Shown: positions 22,163 through 52,721 of the stretch, in pieces | Numbering within the stretch: the first letter of the stretch is position 1 | Layout: every line of letters begins with the position of its first letter | Assembly: GCA_002787775.1 (NCBI GenBank) | Contig: PCUW01000056.1 | Location: forward strand, 52,700-116,699 | Origin: Bdellovibrionales bacterium CG12_big_fil_rev_8_21_14_0_65_38_15 | GTDB lineage: Bacteria; Bdellovibrionota; Bacteriovoracia; Bacteriovoracales; Bacteriovoracaceae | Length of the DNA: 64,000 nt | Direction: 5' to 3' | Program-made: the position numbers and the translations under genes | Notes under the pieces: generated by a model | What the model was told of the DNA's origin: nothing | Database searches by the model: none | What the model saw: only the letters and a program-made list of their open reading frames with translations

Positions 22163-22272
22163 AAATATCTCCCTTAGATTAGGCATCTTAAACGATTTAA
22201 CACAAAAAGCGTATGCTTAAGAAAGCTTGTTAGTTAGGGCATTGACGCAGTAGAATGTTTTTAGGAGTTTTT

Positions 22273-23133
22273 ATGAAAATTGCCTTTTTAAGCTGTAATG
22301 ACCTTGATGGATTTGTTGTTGATGATCATTATCTTCAAACTGCATTTGAAGCCAGAGGTGATAGTGTCGAAGTTGTTTCGTGGAATGATGATCGTCAGTG
22401 GAATCTCTATGACGTCGTTCTCATTCGTACAACTTGGGACTACAGTTCTAACTTGCATACATTTTTAGAAACACTTAAAAGAATATCTAATTCCGGTGCA
22501 AGACTTCTCAATTCGTTCGATCTCGTTGAATGGAATGCTCGAAAAAGCTATTTAAAAGAACTGCAAGAAAAAGAGATCCCTACCATTCCAACACTTTTTC
22601 ATAAAGGTGTAACTAAAGGATTTTTGTCTGATGCCTTTGAGGTCTTTCAAAGTGAGACATTAGTTGTAAAACCCTTAATTGGTGCTGGAAGTGCTAGAAC
22701 TTTTGTTGTGACAAAGAACTTTGAAACGAATGAACTTACAACAATACAAGATGAAATTGGTGGCGATGACGTAATGGTGCAGCCGTTTATAACTGACATT
22801 ACGACACAAGGAGAAGTTTCATTACATTTCTTTAATGGTGAGCTTTCTCATACAATTCGAAAAACTCCAAAAGAAGGTGATTTTAGAGTTCAGGAAGAAT
22901 TTGGTGGATTAATTGAATTGATCGAGCCTCCTGCAACGACTGTAGATCTAGCAAAAAAGACTTTAGAATGCCTAAGTGAAGTTCCACTTTACGCAAGAGT
23001 CGATTTGGTAACTTCAAATAATGAATGGATGCTTATTGAATTAGAGCTTATCGAGCCAGCATTGTATTTTAGAATGGATCAAGATTCGCCAAAGAGATTT
23101 CTAAAAGCGTTTGATCAGTACCTTAAAGCTTAA
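22273..23133 (+). CDS. ATP-grasp ligase, DcsG/RimK-like
   Basis: A 286-residue single-domain ATP-grasp protein. The start is ATG 22273, with TAGGAG 6 bp upstream. IRTTWDYSSNLHTFLETL and LLNSFDLVEWNARKSYLKELQEKEIPTIPT match the N-terminal part of DcsG-like (cycloserine-pathway) and related ligases; VVKPLIGAGSARTFVV is the ATP-binding lysine strand and RVDLV...WMLIELELIEPALYF holds the metal-binding acidic residues. It should join a carboxylate to an amine with ATP cleavage; substrates are unknown. Its end overlaps the flavin reductase gene by 11 bp. First member of the ATP-grasp island. Confidence 0.82.
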   Translation: MKIAFLSCNDLDGFVVDDHYLQTAFEARGDSVEVVSWNDDRQWNLYDVVLIRTTWDYSSNLHTFLETLKRISNSGARLLNSFDLVEWNARKSYLKELQEKEIPTIPTLFHKGVTKGFLSDAFEVFQSETLVVKPLIGAGSARTFVVTKNFETNELTTIQDEIGGDDVMVQPFITDITTQGEVSLHFFNGELSHTIRKTPKEGDFRVQEEFGGLIELIEPPATTVDLAKKTLECLSEVPLYARVDLVTSNNEWMLIELELIEPALYFRMDQDSPKRFLKAFDQYLKA

Positions 23134-23713: not shown

Positions 23714-24569
23714 TATTAACTCGCTTTCCGTATAACAAGACTTCTCTGTGGTGTGAGGGAAGTTGTAAATACTGAACTTTGAAACCCAGTTTTCTCATAG
23801 CTCTTTTATGGTTTTCTAATTGAGGTATAAGTTTTGGAATTGGTAGTTTTATCGTAAGGAAAATTTCCTTAAGTGATTTTGGATAAAAAGCAGCAATTCT
23901 TAGACTTTCTTTGACTGATTGAGTAGCCGATAAGTTTGTATCTACGGCTAATAAATCAATATCCTTTGGAAGTTCACTTTTAATAATATCTTGAACTGGC
24001 TTTTTGATATGTTTAAAATTAGTGTTTGCTAATAAAGTCGAAGACATTTCACCTGGATCAATACCTGTAAGTTGATAGTTTTGCCCAGTGAGAAAATACG
24101 AAGCTCCACCTGGGGAACTTCCAATTTCAATGGCATGTTTATAGTTACTTCTATCTAAGTTTAGAGCTTTAAAAGCTTGGGCAATTTTAAGCCATGCTCT
24201 TGACGGCGCTTCCTCTGGTAATTGGAGTTGAATGAGTTCAATAAGTTTTTCGAAGTGAAAGCAATCTGCTTGCCATAAATTGTCTTTCTTATCTTTGAAA
24301 ATAAAGTGCGGATTCCCCGAAACTTTTAACACATCATGCTCAATCCATATCGTAGGAGCTTGATCTTGAATTCGTTTTGCATCCCTGCCCATTGCTAATG
24401 ATAAAAGAGGAGGGTTTTTAAGAATATCATCGAGAACAGATTCATCACATAAACAGGTGATAAAGCCGGGTACATTAAAGCTAATTTTAATTTTATCTTT
24501 AAAACTAGCAAGCTCAGCTTTTAAAAGGTCAGTATTAGTTGGAATACAGAGAAAAAATATTGGCGTCAT
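23706..24569 (-). CDS. FtsJ/RlmM-like SAM-dependent methyltransferase
   Basis: A 287-residue protein. Residues ~145-250 form a Rossmann methyltransferase: HAIEIGSSPGGASYFLTG (motif I, SPGG like FtsJ and RlmM), GIDPGEMS, and DIDLLAVDTNLSA (acidic loop). The N-terminal ~130 residues may be a THUMP-like or unrelated RNA-binding part. FtsJ-type enzymes 2'-O-methylate rRNA; the short length and divergence from RlmM leave the target open. Its ATG shares one base with the stop of the S58 peptidase gene, indicating tight coupling within the operon. Confidence 0.72.
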   Translation of the reverse strand: MTPIFFLCIPTNTDLLKAELASFKDKIKISFNVPGFITCLCDESVLDDILKNPPLLSLAMGRDAKRIQDQAPTIWIEHDVLKVSGNPHFIFKDKKDNLWQADCFHFEKLIELIQLQLPEEAPSRAWLKIAQAFKALNLDRSNYKHAIEIGSSPGGASYFLTGQNYQLTGIDPGEMSSTLLANTNFKHIKKPVQDIIKSELPKDIDLLAVDTNLSATQSVKESLRIAAFYPKSLKEIFLTIKLPIPKLIPQLENHKRAMRKLGFKVQYLQLPSHHREVLLYGKRVNNE

Positions 24570-25699
24570 TATTTAACTGCATCTTGATATTTTTTATAAA
24601 GTACTCCAACTTCTTCTTTTGGAAGGGCCGGGCATAATCTATCTGATATTCCGATCATATCTTCAGCACCAAATAAGCTGTTTAAGATAGCTTCTTCTGT
24701 TGCTTCGATCGTTGCTTTGTAGATAGGGTTAAGACCTTTATCGTAAAGAACATCCATCTTATAGAGGCGTTTCTTCTCATGACGATCAAGTCTGTTTGCC
24801 GTTGAAAATGCTAAGACAATTTCACCAGAGCCGTGGGCCGCGTAACTTCCTACACGACCGATACCTAGAGCAGCTCGTTTCGCCAGTCTGTTGAGTTGAT
24901 TGCCAAGCATTGGAGCATCTGTAGCTACAACCACGATGATACTACCGTAGGTATGTCTTCTCTTTTTTATATGTTCGTATTTATCAGCTAACAGTCTACC
25001 TATTGGTGTACCGTCTACTTTCAAGTCTTCAATTTCGCCAAAGTTACTCATGACTAGAACACCAACTGTGTAGCCACCATCTTCGACAGGCAATTTTCTA
25101 GAGCTTGTGCCGATCCCACCTTTGAAGTCACAACAAGTCATACCAGTTCCACCACCAACAGAGCCTTCTTCAACAGGACCTGTTTTGGCAGCATCAAGTG
25201 CTTCAAATACGTGTTCAACTTGAACGTGCTGACCGGCAATATCGTTTAACCAGGAATCATCGCACTCGCCAACGAGTGGAATGACGACATCATGGATGCG
25301 ACCAATTTGTGGATGCTTTTGAGTTAAATATTGAACACATCCATCAGAGACAGTTCCCACAGAAAGTGTGTTTGTCAGAAGAATTGGAGTCTCAATCATT
25401 CCCCATTCTTGTACTTGAATCATGCCTGACATTTCTCCGGCACCATTTAAAATAAAAGAACCACCGCAGATGCGCTCGTCGTAAATATTATGGTGAAAAG
25501 GCCATATAGCAGTGACTCCAGTTCTGACTGGGCCATCGCCATTTTTGTGAACATGGCCTTCACCTTCGATTATTGTACTATGTCCAACTAAAACACCTTT
25601 AACGTCAGTGATACTATTCCAACGACCAGGTTTATATTGTCCAATGTTTATGCCGTAATCTCTGGCGCGCTTTTTTGTCTGTTTTTTTGTACTTGGCAC
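24569..25699 (-). CDS. S58 (DmpA/BapA-type) self-processing aminopeptidase
   Basis: A 376-residue Ntn-hydrolase of peptidase family S58. VGVTAIWPF, GSFILNGAGEMSG, TNTLSVGTV, EGSVGGGTGMTCCDFKGGIGTSS and the later VVATDAPM match. The proenzyme should cleave itself before a Ser in GIGTSSR, creating the nucleophile of the beta subunit; members hydrolyse N-terminal D- or L-residues, beta-peptides or amides. GTG start with AAGGAA 4 bp upstream. It lies 8 bp downstream of the tandem ligase, so it may hydrolyse the bonds that ligase forms. The lysine-rich N-terminus (KKQTKKRARD) is unusual. Confidence 0.9.
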   Translation of the reverse strand: MPSTKKQTKKRARDYGINIGQYKPGRWNSITDVKGVLVGHSTIIEGEGHVHKNGDGPVRTGVTAIWPFHHNIYDERICGGSFILNGAGEMSGMIQVQEWGMIETPILLTNTLSVGTVSDGCVQYLTQKHPQIGRIHDVVIPLVGECDDSWLNDIAGQHVQVEHVFEALDAAKTGPVEEGSVGGGTGMTCCDFKGGIGTSSRKLPVEDGGYTVGVLVMSNFGEIEDLKVDGTPIGRLLADKYEHIKKRRHTYGSIIVVVATDAPMLGNQLNRLAKRAALGIGRVGSYAAHGSGEIVLAFSTANRLDRHEKKRLYKMDVLYDKGLNPIYKATIEATEEAILNSLFGAEDMIGISDRLCPALPKEEVGVLYKKYQDAVK

Positions 25700-25707
25700 A
25701 AAGTTCC

Positions 25708-27735
25708 TTAGGTGTTGAGCAGTTTTGATTTTAGTTTATAGCGTTTGATCGCAGGAGCAAGGATTCTGCCAACAAGTTGTTGATAGTTTACGCCAGCACC
25801 ATTGGCGATAATACATAAATCCGACCATTCTGGAGTTAATCCTGGAAGGGGATTACATTCGATAAAGTTGACTCTGCCAAAGCTATCTAGTCTGAAGTCC
25901 ATTCGCGCAACGTCTCTACAGCCCAATGCTTTAAAACATTTCTTTGCGGCAGTTTCTAGTTCACGTCTTAATTTTTCATCAACTTCCGCTGGGGCAACAT
26001 AAGTGACTTCATCGTTGGTGTCTTGTTTGTGGGCGAAAGTATAAATTGGGGTAGGGTTTGATTTATCATTAAAAACAATTTCCATTGGGGGAAGCACTTC
26101 TGGCTTTGTCTCTCCCAATAAACCAATCGTAAATTCTCTACCGGTTAGAAACTCTTCAACTAGAGCACCTTGCTTGTAGCGACTTGTAATTGAAGTTACG
26201 ACTTCCTTTAGCTCTTCTGCATTTTTTACCACAGAGTTTGGAAGTACTCCTTTTGAACTTCCTTCAGCAACTGGTTTAACCATCATTGGGTAAGTCATAT
26301 CCGCTGGTATTTTATCTTTTGAAGAAGTGAGCGTTGCAAATTTGGGGGTTTTTACACCGGCTTCAGTCACAATTCTTTTTGCCATCGCCTTATCAAGTGT
26401 AATGGCTAAAGTTGACGGGTCACTACCTGTGTAAGGGATGTCCATTAGATCAAGTGTTGCGGGAACTTGGCTTTCTCTAAAGCGTCCTCTAACACCTTCT
26501 GAAATATTAAAGACAACATCAACTTGGGCTTCAATCAATTTTTGAGCAAAATTTGGAGTTGCTTCAAGGTCAATCACATCATGACCAAAAGAGGTTATAG
26601 CTCCACGAATAGCATTTAGTGTATCGATACCATCAAATTCAGCTTCGTTATCAGTTTCAGGATTGCTGGCATCTGGCTTGATTCTCTTTTGATTAAAAGC
26701 AAAGCCAATTCTAAGTTTAGATGAGTTTCTTTTTTTCTTGTTTCCTATTTTTAAATTGAATCGTTTCTCAGCGCTCTTAATAACAGCATCGATAACTTCA
26801 ATTTCACTTTTTAAACCGCTTCGTTTGGCGGCTTCATAAAGCCCAGCACCTTGCTCAAGGGAAGGAAGTGCATTGATTTCAATAAAGTAAGGTGTACCGT
26901 CATCAGTCACTCTGAAATCTATTCTTGCGAGATCTTTAATCCCAAGCTTCTCAATGATTTTCTTACCGTAATCTTGAATTAATTTTTTTGTTGTTTCAGA
27001 AATATCAGCAGGACATTTGATATTGACTTGATCAGCCAGATCATTTTTTAGTGAATAATCATAGATTTGATATTTTCGCTTTTTTACCACGTCACCATCA
27101 AAAAGATATTCGATTGGTTCAAGAATTCCATTGTTAGATTGACCACTAATAAAAGGTACAGTGACGTCCTTGCCAATAATAAATTCTTCGACAAGCATTC
27201 CTTCCGGATATTTTTTTAATAAATCTGGAAGTCGTGTTGTAAGTTGTTTTTCATCTTCAACCACAGAGTCAACTGTAATGCCTTTTGAACTTCCCTCTGC
27301 ATTTGGTTTAAGCATTAAAGGAAATTTTAATTGGTGGTTTTTAATTTCATTAATATTTTGAATGAGTATTGATTTTGGAGTTGGTACATTGACCTGAGAT
27401 ATTGCAAGTTTGGTCAAATTCTTATCCAATGTCATGGCACAGGTAAAAGGGTCACTCCCAGTATATGGAATTTCCAATTGTGTAAGAATAGAAGGGTAAA
27501 GTGATTCTCTAAATCTTCCTTTTTCACCTTCTGCTGTATTGAAAACTAAATCTGGTGTAAAGGCTTCCAGTGCATGAACAACTTTAGTGATGGATCCAGT
27601 GACATCAACCGGTAATACTTCATGACCAAGTTCGCGCATAAGAGTCGTTAAAAACTCAACAGTTTCAAGCGTATCAAACTCAGCATGTTCTTCTGAATCG
27701 TTCTGTTTTAAGTTGTGAATAAAGGCAATCTTCAA
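25708..27735 (-). CDS. Tandem double ATP-grasp ligase
   Basis: A 675-residue protein made of two homologous D-Ala-D-Ala-ligase-like units, ~1-325 and ~345-670. Each repeats the same landmarks: LVFNTAEGEKGRFRESLYP / VVFNISEGVRGRFRESQVP, IPYTGSDPFTCAMTLDKN / IPYTGSDPSTLAITLDKA, LMLKPNAEGSSKG / MMVKPVAEGSSKG, and IDFRV...FIEINALPSL / MDFRL...FIECNPLPGL for metal binding. Both units keep ATP and metal residues, so two ligations, or one split reaction, are possible. In operon between the GNAT-nitrilase fusion (76 bp) and the S58 peptidase (8 bp). Substrates unknown. Confidence 0.88.
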   Translation of the reverse strand: MKIAFIHNLKQNDSEEHAEFDTLETVEFLTTLMRELGHEVLPVDVTGSITKVVHALEAFTPDLVFNTAEGEKGRFRESLYPSILTQLEIPYTGSDPFTCAMTLDKNLTKLAISQVNVPTPKSILIQNINEIKNHQLKFPLMLKPNAEGSSKGITVDSVVEDEKQLTTRLPDLLKKYPEGMLVEEFIIGKDVTVPFISGQSNNGILEPIEYLFDGDVVKKRKYQIYDYSLKNDLADQVNIKCPADISETTKKLIQDYGKKIIEKLGIKDLARIDFRVTDDGTPYFIEINALPSLEQGAGLYEAAKRSGLKSEIEVIDAVIKSAEKRFNLKIGNKKKRNSSKLRIGFAFNQKRIKPDASNPETDNEAEFDGIDTLNAIRGAITSFGHDVIDLEATPNFAQKLIEAQVDVVFNISEGVRGRFRESQVPATLDLMDIPYTGSDPSTLAITLDKAMAKRIVTEAGVKTPKFATLTSSKDKIPADMTYPMMVKPVAEGSSKGVLPNSVVKNAEELKEVVTSITSRYKQGALVEEFLTGREFTIGLLGETKPEVLPPMEIVFNDKSNPTPIYTFAHKQDTNDEVTYVAPAEVDEKLRRELETAAKKCFKALGCRDVARMDFRLDSFGRVNFIECNPLPGLTPEWSDLCIIANGAGVNYQQLVGRILAPAIKRYKLKSKLLNT

Positions 27736-27811: not shown

Positions 27812-29377
27812 TTATTCCTTAGGTCCGTGCCAAACAACCGAATAAAGGTCGTGGCGACGATTTTTAAGGTTTTGCACTGTTCCAGAATTTCTTGCTTCGA
27901 CCAAGTTATCAAGTCTTAAGTCTGCAAACGCGACGGTTTCCACGTTTGGTGTCGTATCTGCAGCGATCCCATCTCTAGCGAATGGAAAATCGCAAGGCGT
28001 TAGAATACAAGACTGTGAATAGTGAATATCAATGTTTTGAACATTTGGAAGGTTTCCAACTGAACCAGACATGACTGCGTAAATTTGGTTTTCAATTGTT
28101 CTGGCATGTGTGCAGTAGCGAACTCTGAAATAGCCTTGACGCTCATCTGTTAAGAATGGAACAAATAAAATTTTGATGCCTTGATTGACTAAATGTCTGG
28201 TTAGCTCTGGAAATTCTGAGTCATAACAAATCAAGACGCCAATGGTGCCACAGTCGGTCTCAATCGCTGAAAGCTTATCGCCACCTTCAATATTCCACCA
28301 ATACTTCTCATTAGGAGTTGGATGAATTTTAGGTTGTCCGTGTATCGAGCCATCTCTTAAAAAGACATAAGCGATATTTTGGATTTTGCCTTCACTGCGA
28401 GTTGGGTGTGAGCCAGCAATAATATTGACGTTATATTTAAGCGCCATGTCTCTGAAAAAAGTTTTTAACGGCTCGGTATATTCAGTCATTCGCTCGATGG
28501 CAATATGTGGTGGAACTGGCTCGTTATCAATTGATAACAACTGCAAAGTGAACAGCTCTGGGAACAAAACAAAGTCAGATTTATAATCGGAAACAATATC
28601 AATATAATATTCAACGATCTTTTTAAAATGATCGAAGCTATCAATCCTGCGCTGACCATACTGAACCGTTGCCACGCGAACACTTGTGACGTGACCGTCC
28701 GTACTTCTTTGTTTTTGACCTTTAACTTTGCGCCCTACAATTTCTTCTTCATTATGAAATTCAGGATTGTTCCATGTCATATGAGCTGCATAGCCCATTG
28801 AAGCTTCATCAAGAGGTAAATAATCTTTAATGAGACCTATCACTTCAAAACCGTTACGAAGTTGAAAACCAAGGACAGGATCCTTAATTTTTTTATTTTT
28901 AACTAACTCAATATAGTTTTCTGGTGTGCCAACTTCTTTAATTTTTTTCTTGAGATTAGGAAGGCGACCAGCAAAAACGATACCTCTAAGTCTTAAGTAC
29001 TTGGCTAATTTTTTTCTAGCGTCATAAAAACGCTGACCAATCCTATAGCCGCTAATGTCTTTATCTACACAAACTTCATAACCGTAGAGCCAATCTCCAT
29101 CGGCTTCGTGAGTTGTACCGTAGCCACCGCCCGTGATTTCTTTCCAGTTATGGGGTTTAAGAGCTTTGGCCCCAGGGACTCGAATTGCTGCACTATAACC
29201 AACGATCTTATCACCAAGCTCAGCGACAAAATGGCCTTGCGGGTAGTGGTTGATTTGTCCTCTGATCATATCTAATGGGTAGGGAGGCATGCCCGAATAA
29301 ACTCTTTCTGTTAGGTCGAGGATTGCTTTAACATCTGCTGGAGTGGCATTTCTGATTTGGAGTTTTTCATTTTTCAT
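27812..29377 (-). CDS. GNAT acetyltransferase-nitrilase fusion
   Basis: A 521-residue two-domain protein. Residues 5-190 are a GNAT-like domain (IRNATPADVKAILDLTERVYSG; the acetyl-CoA loop region is GYRIGQRFYDARKKL). Residues ~232-515 are a carbon-nitrogen hydrolase with the full triad: Glu274 in LFPELF, Lys350 in GQPKIHP and Cys384 in LICYDSEFP. The hydrolase should act on a nitrile, amide or N-carbamoyl group. It heads the operon with the tandem ligase and S58 peptidase. No Shine-Dalgarno precedes ATG 29377. The fusion type is known from many bacteria but its substrate is not. Confidence 0.88.
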   Translation of the reverse strand: MKNEKLQIRNATPADVKAILDLTERVYSGMPPYPLDMIRGQINHYPQGHFVAELGDKIVGYSAAIRVPGAKALKPHNWKEITGGGYGTTHEADGDWLYGYEVCVDKDISGYRIGQRFYDARKKLAKYLRLRGIVFAGRLPNLKKKIKEVGTPENYIELVKNKKIKDPVLGFQLRNGFEVIGLIKDYLPLDEASMGYAAHMTWNNPEFHNEEEIVGRKVKGQKQRSTDGHVTSVRVATVQYGQRRIDSFDHFKKIVEYYIDIVSDYKSDFVLFPELFTLQLLSIDNEPVPPHIAIERMTEYTEPLKTFFRDMALKYNVNIIAGSHPTRSEGKIQNIAYVFLRDGSIHGQPKIHPTPNEKYWWNIEGGDKLSAIETDCGTIGVLICYDSEFPELTRHLVNQGIKILFVPFLTDERQGYFRVRYCTHARTIENQIYAVMSGSVGNLPNVQNIDIHYSQSCILTPCDFPFARDGIAADTTPNVETVAFADLRLDNLVEARNSGTVQNLKNRRHDLYSVVWHGPKE

Positions 29378-32994: not shown

Positions 32995-33903
32995 GTGAAA
33001 GTCGCAATTTTAACAATCCTGCCAGATACCTACTCTGTTAAAAGCCTTAGTGAAGAAGGTGCCAAGAGAGGTCATGAAATAAAAGTCATCAACTACTTAA
33101 AATGTTCGATGCAGGTCCGCGCTGACCAATCAACCCTTTCTTATGAAGGAGAGGAACTTAAAGACATCGACGCCGTTATCGCTAGAATAAGTTCTGGCTA
33201 TACCTTCATTGGTTGCTCGGTCGTAAGGCAATTCGAAGCGATGGGAGTTTATTGTGTTAATGGATCTCTTGGAATCGCTCGCTCTAAAGACAAACTAAGA
33301 AGTTTGCAAATTATGGCAAGAAAAGGAATGAGAATTCCACCAACGGCTTTTTCACATTCAACTCCTGACATCAATGGATTAATTAATAGTGTTGGCGGAG
33401 CGCCAGTTATTGTGAAGCTAATCGAAGGCACACAAGGTATCGGCGTCGTCAAAGCTGATACAAAACAAGCCGCCGAATCTGTGCTTGAAGCCTTTAGAGG
33501 TCTAAATGCCAACATGATTGTCCAAGAATATATTGGCGAAAGTGAAGGCGCGGATATTAGAGCTTTTGTCGTGGGAGAAAAAGTGATCGCCTCAATGATT
33601 CGAAAGGCTGCCGAAGGTGAATTTAGGGCCAATTTACACCGGGGTGGATCTGCTGAAAAAATAAAAATTACATCTGAAGAACGAGCACTGGCGATTCAGG
33701 CAGCTAAAGAAATGAAGTTATCAGTTGCCGGAGTCGATATCATTCGCTCAAAATCAGGACCTATGATATTAGAGGTTAATTCTTCGCCAGGACTTGAGGG
33801 AATCTCAGGTTCAACCGGAGTGAATGTTGCGGGAGCAATCTTTGATTTCATCGAAAAAGATCTTGTCAAAGTCGGTAGTAAAACGGCAAAAGTGACGATC
33901 TAA
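32995..33903 (+). CDS. rimK: RimK-type alpha-L-glutamate ligase
   Basis: A 302-residue protein collinear with E. coli RimK. Notable blocks are VIARISSGYTFIGCSVVRQFEAMGV, KDKLRSLQIMARKGMRIPPTAF, IVKLIEGTQGIGVV (ATP-binding), RAFVVGEKVIASMIRKAAEGEFRANLHRGG and ILEVNSSPGLEGIS (metal-binding). RimK adds glutamates to the C-terminus of ribosomal protein S6 and can make poly-glutamate. GTG start at 32995. Followed after 16 bp by the deoxyhypusine-synthase homologue. As part of an ATP-grasp island it may modify something other than S6. Confidence 0.93.
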   Translation: MKVAILTILPDTYSVKSLSEEGAKRGHEIKVINYLKCSMQVRADQSTLSYEGEELKDIDAVIARISSGYTFIGCSVVRQFEAMGVYCVNGSLGIARSKDKLRSLQIMARKGMRIPPTAFSHSTPDINGLINSVGGAPVIVKLIEGTQGIGVVKADTKQAAESVLEAFRGLNANMIVQEYIGESEGADIRAFVVGEKVIASMIRKAAEGEFRANLHRGGSAEKIKITSEERALAIQAAKEMKLSVAGVDIIRSKSGPMILEVNSSPGLEGISGSTGVNVAGAIFDFIEKDLVKVGSKTAKVTI

Positions 33904-44802: not shown

Positions 44803-45326
44803 TGGAAGGTATTTCCGAGCTCTTTGATAATTTTAATTCGAACTTTGACGGATTAGATGAAAGTCGAAGAGCTCAAGTGCTTCTTTATTCTCAAGCGATT
44901 AAACTTTCAAAGTTTAATGAGTTTAAGCTTAAAGATAAAAAAGCCTTTGATATGGTTAAAAATCTTTTTATTCTTCCAGGTAAATTTAACAAAGAACAAC
45001 TAGAACTCTTTAGCGCTTCTTTTATTCAAAACACTCAATCATGCATGGCTGAACTTGAAAAAGGTGGGACAGTACCTCAAGTTCGCGATATGGAAAATAA
45101 ATTATTTGCCAGTCTCTTGTGGGCCTTAACTTTTGGTAGTTGCAGTGACGGAACTCATAAAGAAGATCTCGAGCGTATCTGGAATGATCTTCTCAAGTGC
45201 CATAAGGATCTTTCGAAAGCATTTATTGATTGCACCAAAGGACTTAATTTAGATCCTGAAAAGTTGAAAATAATGGAAAAGGCTTCAAAGCAAAGTATCG
45301 ATGAAATGCAACCGGTTCTTTCTTAG
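44802..45326 (+). CDS. Soluble protein of unknown function, 174 residues
   Basis: A helical cytoplasmic protein with no signal peptide or recognised domain. It begins within the TAA of mscS, indicating translational coupling. Its C-terminal 4 bp overlap the convergent ATP-grasp gene. Cysteines occur at CMAEL, FGSCSD, LLKCHK and FIDCTK. Confidence 0.55.
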   Translation: MEGISELFDNFNSNFDGLDESRRAQVLLYSQAIKLSKFNEFKLKDKKAFDMVKNLFILPGKFNKEQLELFSASFIQNTQSCMAELEKGGTVPQVRDMENKLFASLLWALTFGSCSDGTHKEDLERIWNDLLKCHKDLSKAFIDCTKGLNLDPEKLKIMEKASKQSIDEMQPVLS

Positions 45327-46348
45327 TCTGTATAAATAGTGCTACTAGCAAAAGCGAGTGAAACCATCTTCTCAATGAGATCATCATACTTGATGCCCTT
45401 ATGCATGGCACTTTCTGCAAACTCATCATCTCTGCCAATATTGGGATTTGGATTCGCTTCGATAACATAAATGTCATTTTCAGGAGTGACTCTTAAATCA
45501 ATCCTGGCATATCCAGATAAATGAAGGGCACGATAAGTTCTTTTACATATATCGATGACTTTTTTTTGTAGGGCAGGAGTCAGCTTGGCAGGGCCTGATT
45601 TGATACCTTTTCTCGCTCGATAATCAGGATTCCATTTTGCCATTCGCGTATAAATTTCTTTTGAAGGCTCATCCACTTTATCAAAGTGAACTTCCCAAAC
45701 AGGCAGGGTGCTTAAGCGCTGATGGCCATAGACTCCAACATAAAGCTCGCGTCCTTCGATAAATTCTTCGGCAATCGCATGGTAACCAAGCTTTTCATGA
45801 ATCCACTTAACCCGATCGATGAGCTTTTCTTTTGATCTCACAATGCTCGATCTTGCAATTCCAAGGGAGGCTTCTTCCATTTGGCATTTTACAATACATG
45901 GGTAAGGTAATTCTTTTGGAACTTTAACACCCGTCCAAACAGGAAACTCTGCAAACCTTGGCGTTTTTATTCGATGATAAGTTAAGACTTTCTTTGTCAG
46001 TGCTTTATCTCTGGCAAGAATAAGTCCTCTCGGATTTGAGCCTGTATAGGGTTGTTTTAGCAGTTCAAGATAACTAACTACATTTTGGTCGAATAAAGCT
46101 TCGCCATCAAATTCTTCAAGTAAATTAAAAGTAGCATGAGGCTTAAACTCTTCAATAGCATCACGAATCGGTTTTAAGTCGCCATAGATACCTAGTGGTA
46201 AAACTTCATGCCCGCGCTTTTTTAGAGCTGTAATGACATCTAGTTCTGTAATCCAAGGGCATTTATCAGGATCGATATCACTTCTTTTGATCCCATTTTT
46301 AGGAACCAAATCTTTGTGCATTAGCACCATCAGGCGACTTTTTTTCAC
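45323..46348 (-). CDS. D-Ala-D-Ala-ligase-like ATP-grasp ligase
   Basis: A 341-residue protein homologous to each half of the tandem ligase at 25.7-27.7 kb: GHEVLPLGIYGDLKPIRDAIEEFKPHATFNLLEEFDG, QPYTGSNPRGLILARDKALTKKVL, CIVKCQMEEASLGIA (ATP strand), ARIDLRV...YVIEANPNPNIG (metal site). GTG start overlapping the stop of the metallopeptidase gene by 4 bp. Substrates unknown; the peptidase pairing suggests an amino-acid or peptide product. Signature residues of a true Ddl are not all evident. Confidence 0.88.
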   Translation of the reverse strand: MKKSRLMVLMHKDLVPKNGIKRSDIDPDKCPWITELDVITALKKRGHEVLPLGIYGDLKPIRDAIEEFKPHATFNLLEEFDGEALFDQNVVSYLELLKQPYTGSNPRGLILARDKALTKKVLTYHRIKTPRFAEFPVWTGVKVPKELPYPCIVKCQMEEASLGIARSSIVRSKEKLIDRVKWIHEKLGYHAIAEEFIEGRELYVGVYGHQRLSTLPVWEVHFDKVDEPSKEIYTRMAKWNPDYRARKGIKSGPAKLTPALQKKVIDICKRTYRALHLSGYARIDLRVTPENDIYVIEANPNPNIGRDDEFAESAMHKGIKYDDLIEKMVSLAFASSTIYTD

Positions 46349-47178
46349 ATTAAAATCCCAATATTCTCATTAATGAGCATTTGCTTTGCTTGAATAAGAA
46401 TATCAGGAGTTAGTTTTTTTGGGGATATTTTTTGAATTTTAACGACTTTAGTAATTGTTCTTAACTGTCGCTTTTTTGAACTTTCGATAAAATCAGCGAT
46501 TGTTCCTTTAGAATCAGTTATAGGGTCAACAACAAACTTCTCGCTATTGATAGGCTTTGTGCCCGCAATTTCTTGCATGATCGAATCACAATACTCCAGC
46601 TTCGAGAGAGCCAATGTCTTTTTATATTTATTTGTCCAAGTCTTCTTTGGAGTTGAGAGCCATACGGCAAATGTCTCTGCCCAGTCTTCGTCTGGATGGG
46701 CTTGAGAATAATGGCCTTCAAGATGATGGACATAATCAGTAGATTCTAAATTGGGTTTATAAATATTAGGATAAGGAGTTGTTGAACTTCCAAACAGTTT
46801 TTGCCTTTGTCTTTTTCTACGAAGGCGCCAGGCATTCTCAATAGCATGGCCGATTTCATGACGAATCAGCATCAATGCCTGTTTCTTATTGATGCCTTCG
46901 ACATTAAGGCCTGATTTTTTTAATAACTTTATAAATGTTGGATGAAATAGATAAAAAGGAATTGCTATACCGGGACATCCATCAGGACAAAACCATTCAT
47001 CCGAAACCCAAGTATGAAAAAATGGTTTAATATTTTTTTCGCGCAGCTCTTCTTTTACTATATTTAAGCAATCCCAAACCCAATGTTTTTTTAAATCAAA
47101 CCTAATCAGATTTAATGGCATCGCTAGCCATTGCTCTTGATTTAAATACGATAGATCAATTGGAGAGAGTTTTTTCAT
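46345..47178 (-). CDS. Zinc-binding metallopeptidase, HExxH type
   Basis: A 277-residue protein. MLIRHEIGHAIENAW holds HEIGH, with the two zinc-binding His, and the downstream HPDEDWAETFAVWLSTP has the DWAETFA motif that supplies the third ligand in this family (resembling putative zinc-binding metallopeptidases). No signal peptide, so cytoplasmic. The gene overlaps the ATP-grasp gene by GTGA. A link between ligase and peptidase on the same substrate is inferred. Confidence 0.8.
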   Translation of the reverse strand: MKKLSPIDLSYLNQEQWLAMPLNLIRFDLKKHWVWDCLNIVKEELREKNIKPFFHTWVSDEWFCPDGCPGIAIPFYLFHPTFIKLLKKSGLNVEGINKKQALMLIRHEIGHAIENAWRLRRKRQRQKLFGSSTTPYPNIYKPNLESTDYVHHLEGHYSQAHPDEDWAETFAVWLSTPKKTWTNKYKKTLALSKLEYCDSIMQEIAGTKPINSEKFVVDPITDSKGTIADFIESSKKRQLRTITKVVKIQKISPKKLTPDILIQAKQMLINENIGILM

Positions 47179-50098: not shown

Positions 50099-50968
50099 AT
50101 GATAAAAACAAATGATCTGATCGTCACTGTTGGTGATGTTGTAGAGAAGATTGCTGGGGCCACCATTCAGCACGGTGAATTCAATGATCGTATTTATTTG
50201 ATGAAAATGAATGATGATATCTCTGCCAAGCAAGTTATTGTTTCGATAGAAGAGCTAGCCTTAGAAAATAATTACGGAAAGATTTTCATTAAAACTCCAC
50301 AATCAAGATATCTTTCATTTTTAGAAAATGGTTATGAAATCGAGGCTACAATTCCAGGATTTTATAAAGGCGTTGAGCAAGCCATTTTTATGGTTAAGTA
50401 TATAGATCAAGAAAGAAGAGAACTTGAAAAACCAGCACTTGTTCAAGAAGTGATTGAGGTCTCTCAAGATAAAGATACCATTAGGGCGCAAGGTCTGCCT
50501 TCCAATTATATGATGAGAGAGCTTACTCTTGAAGATACAGAAGAAATGGCAGCCATTTATTCTGAAATTTTTCCTACATACCCATTTCCTATCCATCAAT
50601 CAGAGTACCTTAAAACAGTGATGAGTGATTATGTTCGAAGCTTTGGAGTCTATGATCCTGAAGGAAAACTTGTTTCGGTTGCCGCTTGTGAAATTGATAA
50701 GAACGGATTAAATGTCGAAATGACGGATTTCGCCACTTTACCTGATTATAGAGGGCAAGGTCTTGCTCATGAAATATTATATTTTATGGAAGCACAAATG
50801 AAGCAAAATGGAATTAAAACTGCCTATACCATCGCTCGTGCGAGATCCTTTGGTATGAATATTACTTTTTCCAAAGCAGGTTATGAATTCGCTGGTATGT
50901 TAAAAAATAATACCAATATATCTGGCAGTATCCAGTCGATGAATGTTTGGTACAAGCAGTTAAACTAA
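50099..50968 (+). CDS. ablB: Beta-lysine N-acetyltransferase-like GNAT
   Basis: A 289-residue protein collinear with AblB. The N-terminal half (GATIQHGEFNDRIYLMKMNDDI, KIFIKTPQSRYLSFLENGYEIEATIPGFYKG) and the C-terminal GNAT domain (MTDFATLPDYRGQGLAHEIL; AYTIARARSFGMNITFSKAGYEFAGMLKNNTNISGSIQSMNVWYK) are distinctive of the family. It would acetylate beta-lysine to N-epsilon-acetyl-beta-lysine, a compatible solute. GAGGT is upstream of the ATG. The partner lysine 2,3-aminomutase AblA, normally adjacent, is absent from this window. The end overlaps the deacetylase by 4 bp. Confidence 0.88.
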   Translation: MIKTNDLIVTVGDVVEKIAGATIQHGEFNDRIYLMKMNDDISAKQVIVSIEELALENNYGKIFIKTPQSRYLSFLENGYEIEATIPGFYKGVEQAIFMVKYIDQERRELEKPALVQEVIEVSQDKDTIRAQGLPSNYMMRELTLEDTEEMAAIYSEIFPTYPFPIHQSEYLKTVMSDYVRSFGVYDPEGKLVSVAACEIDKNGLNVEMTDFATLPDYRGQGLAHEILYFMEAQMKQNGIKTAYTIARARSFGMNITFSKAGYEFAGMLKNNTNISGSIQSMNVWYKQLN

Positions 50969-51981
50969 AGAAAGCCCTTTAAAAAACTTTTAACGTTCGG
51001 GCCAAGATCTTTGGTGTGGTACCCACCTTCTTGTAAGATAACAGTAGGAAGATCTAATTCAAAGATTTGTCGTCCAAGCTTTTGATAGTCATCTGTTTCA
51101 AGTTCAAATTTGCCAATGGGATCTAATTTATAGGTATCAAATCCAGCTGACACAATAAGATGCTCTGGCTCAAATGCTTTTATCGTTGGGAAAACATGTT
51201 TTTTTAAAGCTTGTTCATAGGCCTTAAGTTTAGTTCCGGTAGGAAGGATAATATTATGATTAAACCCAGCTCCCGCTCCAGATCCTACCTCAGTTGAAAA
51301 ACCGATGAGGTATGGGAAATAGTCCCTAGGATCACCATGGATACTAATGACTAAAACATCAGGATCTTCATAGAATATTTCTTGAGAGCCATTTCCATGG
51401 TGAAAGTCGATATCAAGAATGACAACTCTACCTTTCTTTTTCAGTTCTCTGGCAGATATAGCGGCATTATTAAAGTAACAATAACCACCATATGTATCAA
51501 AAGAGGCGTGGTGACCAGGTGGTCTTGAAAGAGCGTAGGCATATTTAGACTTACCACTGGCAACCATCTTCGTCGCCTCAAGAGCGCAGGCAGCAGACCA
51601 GCCAGCAGCAGACAGTGTTTTATTATTTAACGGTGTCCCTGAGTCAAAGCAGTAATATCCAGCATGGTTTAGATTAGCAGGGTTAGGCTCAATACCAGAA
51701 CGTTGCAAGAAAACACTGGGATAGTACTCTTTATCATCTGGTAGGTGAGTTGCAGCATTATATAAAGTCCATAATTGGAAATTGTGAACATCACGAATTG
51801 CTGAAAGAGGTATTTTTTTTGGTTCAATAATTTCAAAACTTTGATCTTTTGATAAAGATTTAAATATAGACTCAGCTCTCTTCGTGCTTTCTGGATGTTT
51901 GATTTTATTACCTAAGGCCCACTCATACTTTGGAGCAAACTCAAGCTGTAATTGATTAAAAAATACGGGCATCTTATCCAT
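50965..51981 (-). CDS. HDAC-family acetylpolyamine/acetyl-lysine amidohydrolase
   Basis: A 338-residue class II deacetylase-like protein. RPPGHHASFDTYGGYCYFNNAA has the HH pair, VVILDIDFHHGNGSQEIF the zinc-binding DxH, SAGFDTYKLDPIG the Asp, and ILQEGGYHT the conserved Tyr-containing loop. The acetylpolyamine amidohydrolase branch fits best: it removes acetyl groups from acetylpolyamines or acetyl-lysine-type molecules. ATG 51981 is chosen because AAGGA is 5 bp upstream; longer starts overlap the ABC gene. Beside ablB, it could reverse the acetylation. Confidence 0.88.
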   Translation of the reverse strand: MDKMPVFFNQLQLEFAPKYEWALGNKIKHPESTKRAESIFKSLSKDQSFEIIEPKKIPLSAIRDVHNFQLWTLYNAATHLPDDKEYYPSVFLQRSGIEPNPANLNHAGYYCFDSGTPLNNKTLSAAGWSAACALEATKMVASGKSKYAYALSRPPGHHASFDTYGGYCYFNNAAISARELKKKGRVVILDIDFHHGNGSQEIFYEDPDVLVISIHGDPRDYFPYLIGFSTEVGSGAGAGFNHNIILPTGTKLKAYEQALKKHVFPTIKAFEPEHLIVSAGFDTYKLDPIGKFELETDDYQKLGRQIFELDLPTVILQEGGYHTKDLGPNVKSFLKGFL

Positions 51982-51989
51982 AACGATCC

Positions 51990-52721
51990 TTAGGCTATAA
52001 CTGACTTTAAAAACTCTTGAGTACGTGCATTTTTTGGTGAATCTAAAAGCTCGCAAGGTGAGCCTTCTTCTAGAATTTTTCCTTCATGTAAAAAACAAAT
52101 GCGATCGGCAACAGCTCGAGCAAAACTTATTTCGTGAGTAACAATAATCATTGTCATCCCATCATTAACAAGTTGCTTCATCACATTTAGAACACTCTCA
52201 ACCGTTTCAGGGTCTAGAGCACTGGTGGGTTCATCAAAAAGCATAAGCTTTGGATCCATGGCAAGCGCTCTTGCAATCGCGACTCTTTGCTTTTGGCCAC
52301 CAGATAATCTTGCGGGATATTCCTTCGCTTTGTCACTTAGACCAACTTTTTCTAATAAACGGTTGGCAATTTGTATCGCTTCACTTCGTTTTATTTTTTG
52401 AACTTTGATGGGAGCTTCAATGATATTTTCAAGCACTGACATATGAGGAAAAAGATTAAAATGTTGAAAAACCATACCCATCGAAGAACGGACTTGATTG
52501 AGGTTTGTTACCTTTGGATCAATCGGCGTTCCTTGATAGTTAATAATTCCATCAGTGGGTAGTTCTAAGTAATTTAAACATCTTAAGAATGTACTTTTAC
52601 CTGATCCAGAAGCACCAATAAGGCAGATGACTTCACCAGCTTGAACTTCTAGATCAATACCTTTAAGGACCTCAAGTTGACCAAAGTTTTTATGAATATT
52701 TTGAGCACTAAGAAGAGCCAC
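51990..52721 (-). CDS. Polar amino-acid ABC importer ATPase
   Basis: A 243-residue GlnQ/HisP-type ATPase: CLIGASGSGKSTFLRCLNYLELPTDG (Walker A), LSGGQKQRVAIARAL (signature), LMLFDEPTSALDPETV (Walker B), VTHEISFARAVADRI (switch His). The third gene of the importer operon, 8 bp upstream of the deacetylase gene, so the deacetylase is probably co-transcribed. Polar amino-acid family ATPases. Confidence 0.95.
   Translation of the reverse strand: MALLSAQNIHKNFGQLEVLKGIDLEVQAGEVICLIGASGSGKSTFLRCLNYLELPTDGIINYQGTPIDPKVTNLNQVRSSMGMVFQHFNLFPHMSVLENIIEAPIKVQKIKRSEAIQIANRLLEKVGLSDKAKEYPARLSGGQKQRVAIARALAMDPKLMLFDEPTSALDPETVESVLNVMKQLVNDGMTMIIVTHEISFARAVADRICFLHEGKILEEGSPCELLDSPKNARTQEFLKSVIA

Follow-up and report, generated by a model that had tools for sequence, protein, structure and literature searches.

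The locus described here lies on the reverse strand of a 64,000-nucleotide stretch of DNA, in the following called the window, from a Bdellovibrionales bacterium. Its central gene encodes a single chain with two halves that both resemble a D-Ala-D-Ala ligase (Ddl), and the bases GGGG end six bases ahead of its TTG start codon. A gene for a peptidase of the S58 type follows downstream and a gene for a fusion protein lies upstream. The features are as follows:

25708-27735, (-) strand: tandem ligase, open frame, 675 aa, TTG start
26755..27735, (-) strand: half A, residues 1-327, ATP-grasp unit of the Ddl fold; acceptor-loop Ser and Gly exchanged (A297, S292)
26719..26754, (-) strand: linker between the halves, residues 328-339; pLDDT below 50 at residues 331-338
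25708..26718, (-) strand: half B, residues 340-675 plus stop codon, ATP-grasp unit of the Ddl fold; Ser (S638) and Gly (G632) of the acceptor loop kept
24569..25699, (-) strand: Ntn-hydrolase of the S58 (DmpA/BapA) type, directly downstream of the tandem gene at a distance of 8 bases; PF03576, 392 bits
24941..24946, (-) strand: predicted self-cleavage point Gly252-Ser253 of the S58 protein, with Ser253 as the expected nucleophile
27812-29377, (-) strand: GNAT-nitrilase fusion (GNAT-like N-terminal part, nitrilase C-terminal part), upstream of the tandem gene

The two halves share 112 of 334 aligned positions (34% identity, 189 bits, E 2e-62 by BLASTP). PF07478 (cut-off 24) gave 101 bits for half A and 135 bits for half B when each was searched on its own, and comparison of structures by VIA-align matched half A to the Ddl of B. 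pseudomallei (5nri_A; Z 30.6, rmsd 2.4) and half B to DdlB of P. aeruginosa (8evz_C; Z 34.0, rmsd 2.1), with 294 residues aligned in either case. A reading made from the sequence alone (the sequence-only reading) had proposed two full ATP-grasp units in one chain that share the motifs GRFRES, IPYTGSDP and KPxAEGSSKG. The Pfam and structure matches bear this out, and all three motifs are present in both halves, the last one as KPNAEGSSKG and KPVAEGSSKG. The AlphaFold2 model of the whole chain reached a mean pLDDT of 89.6 and a pTM of 0.52, values which suggest that each unit is well modelled but that their packing against each other is not.

With the tandem protein as query, 45 of the 368 genomes of the phylum gave matches at E 1e-40 or better. 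Judged from the match rows, the tandem or a clear part of it is present in 37 of them; fragments at contig ends count among these, as do a split copy (G285) and a genome that has only half B (G302). The remaining eight (G039, G051, G063, G075, G181, G201, G329 and G361) have single-domain relatives. Both halves of 31 tandem proteins, one from each of these 37 genomes except G059, G277, G278, G284, G285 and G302, were aligned with DdlB of E. coli, whose numbering is used below; the ATP, metal, oxyanion and donor-site roles of the scored residues are those that we presume for DdlB. Lys97, Lys144, Lys215, Arg255, Asp257, Glu270 and Asn272 are present in 31 of 31 sequences of either half, and Glu180 in all A halves and in 30 of the 31 B halves. 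Glu187 is replaced by Asp in all 31 A halves and Ser150 by Thr in 17 of the 31 B halves. The alignment at Glu15 is uncertain; an A-E-F-D motif with an invariant Glu (E19 and E366) follows the first strand. Neither half has lost its ATP or metal residues, which are near-invariant in the 31 proteins, and the view that both halves are intact can be upheld. Mean pairwise distances, determined for 25 loci, are 0.486 for half A and 0.491 for half B, and this near-equality argues against a decaying half. Two intact ATP-grasp units in one chain would make two couplings chemically possible.

Fold and ATP, metal and oxyanion residues of each half are those of Ddl enzymes such as the E. coli and P. aeruginosa DdlB proteins. 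The tandem differs from them in having two units in one chain, in the replacement of His63 and Tyr216 and, in half A, in the replacement of the acceptor-loop Gly and usually of the Ser. His63 has become Glu in 31 of 31 sequences of both halves, and Tyr216 is likewise absent from all of them (N or Q in half A; Q, L, H, N, M, S or I in half B); we take these two residues to form part of the D-Ala donor site in Ddl. Scored alone, both halves stay below the cut-off of one curated Ddl model (149.8 bits for half A and 193.5 for half B, cut-off 243) and below TIGR01205 (136 and 165 bits, cut-off 245.65). The whole chain passes both models (338.8 and 296.7) because two stretches are summed. Since the halves exceed the cut-off jointly and neither does so alone, annotation by score is likely to return 'D-alanine--D-alanine ligase' for this gene. 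The sequence-only reading had called the enzyme D-Ala-D-Ala-ligase-like; given the low scores of the single halves and the two exchanged donor-site residues, the name D-Ala-D-Ala ligase is not supported, and judged from the sequence it is not safe for the tandem. Internal duplication of an ATP-grasp protein is described for CarB, the large subunit of carbamoyl phosphate synthetase, in a passage of PMC11915815. A carbamoyl phosphate synthetase identity was rejected here: in each half the score for CPSase_L_D2 is lower than that for the Ddl model by a factor of about 4 to 5 (101 versus 21 bits in half A, 135 versus 36 bits in half B).

The halves also differ from each other. Among 51 columns conserved in at least 28 of the 31 sequences of each half, 42 are identical between the halves and 9 differ, and 4 of these 9 fall at DdlB positions 273-282, which we assume to be the loop that holds the second amino acid in Ddl. 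Half B keeps Gly276 and Ser281 in 31 of 31 proteins each. Half A has Ser at position 276 in 31 of 31, and at position 281 Ala in 28, Ser in two and Cys in one. The simplest reading of these alignments is that the halves would use different acceptors. A shared, heterodimer-like active site, one of two arrangements considered earlier, is not needed, because each half has a full residue set of its own. One may also ask whether only one half forms a bond while the other, in imitation of the Ddl homodimer, has a regulatory or structural function. Half A would be the candidate for such a role with its Ser for the loop Gly in all 31 proteins and no loop Ser in 29 of them, and in G302 half B stands alone beside an S58 gene, which indicates that half A is not always needed. 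Against this, the ATP and metal residues of half A (the set from K97 to N272) are invariant in all 31 proteins, half A changes no faster than half B, and a protein of the half A type occurs alone in a 529 kb contig of a viral collection. We regard a single active half as unlikely.

Peptidases of the S58 type remove N-terminal D- or beta-amino acids. The S58 protein of the window matches the relatives 2drh, 5tzb, 3n2w and 1b65 of the PDB over its full length and scores above the cut-off of PF03576. Gly252 and Ser253 are present in 25 of 25 aligned S58 proteins encoded with the tandem, and so is the S-G-E motif. With DmpA, BapA and the Pyrococcus-type protein 2drh it has in common the full-length match, the Gly-Ser cleavage point and the S-G-E motif; in contrast to these known S58 peptidases, its gene is linked to that of a ligase. 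According to PMC9570944, DmpA/BapA-type enzymes cleave themselves at Gly-Ser and can also make L-carnosine, a beta-alanyl dipeptide, so that the S58 partner might even have a part in synthesis. The genus g124 has a second S58 protein, more distantly related (L086 and L087), with a start that resembles a signal peptide. The S58 partner in the window has lysines at its start and, by eye, no such stretch, and for this reason ligase and S58 protein are probably both cytoplasmic.

Gene order was read in 28 loci, from 28 of the 36 tandem genomes other than that of the window. In 24 of them the S58 gene comes immediately after the tandem gene in the same orientation, with gaps between -56 and 75 bases when the longest possible start is used; 23 of the 24 pairs overlap or are separated by at most 31 bases. 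The remaining four loci either stop at a contig end (L031) or have other neighbours (L049, L058 and L062). The pair is kept in the families f1, f13, f14, f24, f26 and f29 while other neighbours change, and except for an ABC-ATPase family no other recurrent neighbour of the tandem extends beyond a few lineages. On the level of genomes, S58 matches at E 1e-50 or better were found in 42 of 368. Of these 42, 36 belong to the 37 tandem genomes and 6 to the remaining 331 (G077, G327, G344, G353, G356 and G357); the Fisher p value of this co-occurrence is 2e-42, ignoring kinship. The S58 gene lies on a contig other than that of the tandem in G364, G127 and G023, and the one tandem genome without a match, G126 (85% complete), gave none even at E 1e-20. 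In 25 loci the distances between S58 proteins track those of half A (r 0.88) and half B (r 0.93), and none of 2000 permutations gave values as high.

All of these data come from one phylum whose members are not independent of one another, and the link to S58 might in principle be a habit of the lineage without a shared pathway, with the tandem as a stand-alone ligase. The persistence of the pair across the six families amid changing neighbours makes this highly improbable, as does the finding that in two genomes the S58 gene stands beside another Ddl-like ligase. A second possibility is remodelling of the cell wall according to the logic of VanA and VanX, in which an alternative D-Ala-X end is made and ordinary D-Ala-D-Ala is removed; the tandem would then make the D-Ala-X end and the S58 protein, as a D-aminopeptidase, would remove D-Ala-D-Ala. 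The Ddl fold of both halves would suit this role, relatives of the S58 protein include D-aminopeptidases, and a UppP (BacA-family) gene follows S58 in 9 of 10 fetched f14 loci (by Pfam in two of them). However, the exchange of both donor-site residues in every half examined speaks against this role, the UppP gene was seen adjacent only in f14, and the usual E-x-E-[IV]-S-L motif is present in a further Ddl-like protein of the window's genome (G000, contig 40). We consider a role in the cell wall distinctly unlikely.

We favour, with a probability of roughly 0.5, the reading that the tandem is a two-step peptide ligase whose halves take different acceptors, and that the S58 enzyme cleaves or recycles its product. 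As restated in PMC6376114, ATP-grasp catalysis usually proceeds through an acyl phosphate, which is then handed on to an amine. Each half would accordingly be expected to activate a carboxylate with ATP as acyl phosphate and then to join it to an amine. As the acceptor loops differ, the two halves would probably carry out different, sequential couplings that lead to a short peptide other than D-Ala-D-Ala, and the Ntn-hydrolase would trim, release or recycle this product. The two halves, their residues and the linkage to S58 were obtained directly from computation; the activity of both halves, the order of coupling and an action of S58 on the product we infer from them. Several observations count against the favoured reading: six genomes with S58 only, the S58 genes on other contigs and the missing one of G126, the lone half B of G302, the changes at Glu187 and Ser150, the low pTM of the whole-chain model, the sparse occurrence of a third ligase described below and the restriction of the data to one phylum.

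The S58 genes of G127 and G023, which lie apart from the tandem, have a further gene for a Ddl-like ATP-grasp protein and a GNAT gene after them (by Pfam). Strong matches to this third ligase (E 1.3e-59 or better) occur in 7 of the 368 genomes (G000, G023, G059, G060, G061, G127 and G128), all of which bear the tandem or a piece of it; they make up 7 of the 37 tandem genomes. The chance that all seven fall among tandem genomes is about 6e-8, and counted by genus (6 of the 8 tandem genera, among 48 of the order) it is 2e-6, both ignoring kinship. A GNAT-like gene adjoins the third ligase in all seven (by Pfam in three). Weaker matches were found in ten further genomes, one of which (G325) has the tandem, and G059, G060 and G061 have extra paralogues of the third ligase without GNAT alongside. 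In the genome of the window, third ligase, GNAT and a fusion of the GNAT-histone-deacetylase type lie in a row (L100:8512-11743, contig 9 of G000). We assume that in some genomes the third ligase and the GNAT protein would probably extend or cap the peptide.

An acetylated peptide osmolyte similar to N-acetylglutaminylglutamine amide (NAGGN), perhaps built on beta-lysine, would give these genes another meaning. According to the section of PMC8070244 on it, the NAGGN operon has asparagine synthase, GNAT and aminopeptidase genes, and it thereby resembles the present case in combining a peptide-bond-forming GNAT protein with an aminopeptidase in one operon; that operon uses, however, an asparagine-synthase-like enzyme, and here a GNAT gene was seen to recur only beside the third ligase. 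Besides the third ligase and GNAT of the seven genomes, the osmolyte could draw on the product of window positions 50099-50968, which matches AblB with 324.9 bits (cut-off 205.1), and a single-domain relative in Thioflavicoccus stands beside diaminopropionate and KamA genes. On the other hand, AblB matches at E 1e-30 or better are present in only 6 of 37 tandem genomes (9 of 331 others), the lysine 2,3-aminomutase-like matches in the genome of the window are below the cut-off, and the third ligase with GNAT is missing from most tandem genomes. Such an osmolyte appears quite improbable, and the low AblB count also weakens beta-lysine as a common substrate.

Two other leads from the neighbourhood were weakened in the same way as AblB, because none of the three follows the tandem across genomes. 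The GNAT-nitrilase was rejected as a pathway partner: it occurs in 42 of 126 genomes of the order (E 1e-80 or better), 4 of which have the tandem (G000, G113, G046 and G047), and among the 28 loci it lies beside the tandem only in the genus of the window. In f14 an arginase-family gene is the immediate upstream neighbour in 7 of 10 fetched loci (L029, L030, L043, L052, L053, L054 and L063), one gene further away in L028 and not seen in L027 and L042; genes for Pot-type transporters are also near the tandem. Arginase or polyamine metabolism was discarded as a general partner, with arginase-family matches, among the genomes compared, in 18 of 33 tandem genomes and in 11 of 14 others.

Returning to the two-step ligase with its S58 partner, a wider and tentative proposal, which we hold to be rather unlikely in its full form, is a make-and-break system of the Bdellovibrio phylum with ligase, Ntn-hydrolase and, in part of the lineages, third ligase and acetyltransferase, which would assemble and take apart a new tri- or tetrapeptide containing D- or beta-amino acids, sometimes acetylated, for use as osmolyte, nitrogen store or signal. 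Literature searches by title gave, among the matches listed, no tandem Ddl-like ligase and no Ddl-like ligase together with S58. Pairs of an ATP-grasp ligase and a peptidase are a known theme, which Iyer and others reportedly treated in general form in their 2009 work on ATP-grasp gene neighbourhoods. The Anbu operon (ATP-grasp, alpha-E, transglutaminase-like and Ntn-hydrolase genes) is a comparable case in that an ATP-grasp protein is encoded with an Ntn-fold protein of unproved role; in contrast to the present locus its ATP-grasp protein is glutathione-synthetase-like, its Ntn family is a different one, and the portion of PMC6376114 that deals with it describes no tandem. The pair of ligase and hydrolase is the more useful finding than the tandem itself. 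Through a two-headed ligase with a dedicated hydrolase, the making and breaking of what would be a new small peptide of Bdellovibrio-like bacteria becomes directly testable, and the tandem might also serve as a tool enzyme for forming amide bonds.

Concerning the history of the tandem, its A halves and B halves form separate groups in the tree with matching inner order. The single-domain protein of the 529 kb contig (L111:4010-5044) joins the A group (support 100/100), and a single-domain protein of G329 joins the B group weakly (88/79). A tree in which the tandem halves, together with half B of G302, form one exclusive group was rejected (p-AU 2e-5). The tree is compatible with a fusion of two diverged genes as well as with the loss of one half at a later time. 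Both main types of the tandem occur within the family f1 (G060, G061 and the window versus G046, G047, G023, G062 and G127), and this points to a transfer of the gene as a whole or to an old duplication with losses. Among named records, a MAG under the label Halobacteriovorax sp. has the nearest relative, with 88% identity; a scan of contig collections gave one close relative, and a query with a single sequence reaches only close relatives. Among the matching records, 15 of 635 from plasmids and 10 of 22 from phages were read; in these both halves hit the same stretch of about 1,000 bases or less, which marks them as single-domain relatives; a second tandem protein as query gave no match against plasmids at E 1e-60.

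Note that the window is dense in ATP-grasp genes between 22255 and 46348, with members at 22255-23133, in the tandem, at 32995-33903 (RimK) and at 45323-46348. Of the 10 PF07478 matches in the genome, 4 lie within the window; two of the four are the tandem halves, and one is below the cut-off. Between 30727 and 34897 a pyroglutamyl-peptidase-like gene, a 2OG-Fe(II) oxygenase, an AstE/AspA-like gene, RimK and a deoxyhypusine-synthase-like gene follow one another, and the same order is found in L001. The AblB-type gene for a putative beta-lysine N-acetyltransferase (50099-50968, (+) strand) is convergent with a histone-deacetylase-family gene (50965-52056, (-) strand). The Thioflavicoccus ligase mentioned above is encoded on a plasmid (L073:2656-8137), where it is a single Ddl-like ligase beside diaminopropionate, diaminobutyrate-transaminase and KamA genes. 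A second Ddl-like ligase gene of the window, which encodes a single unit (45323-46348, (-) strand), overlaps a Peptidase_Mx (PF15887) gene (46345-47178, (-) strand) by 4 bases, and relatives of these two are neighbours in all eight fetched loci of this single-domain type (L033-L040).
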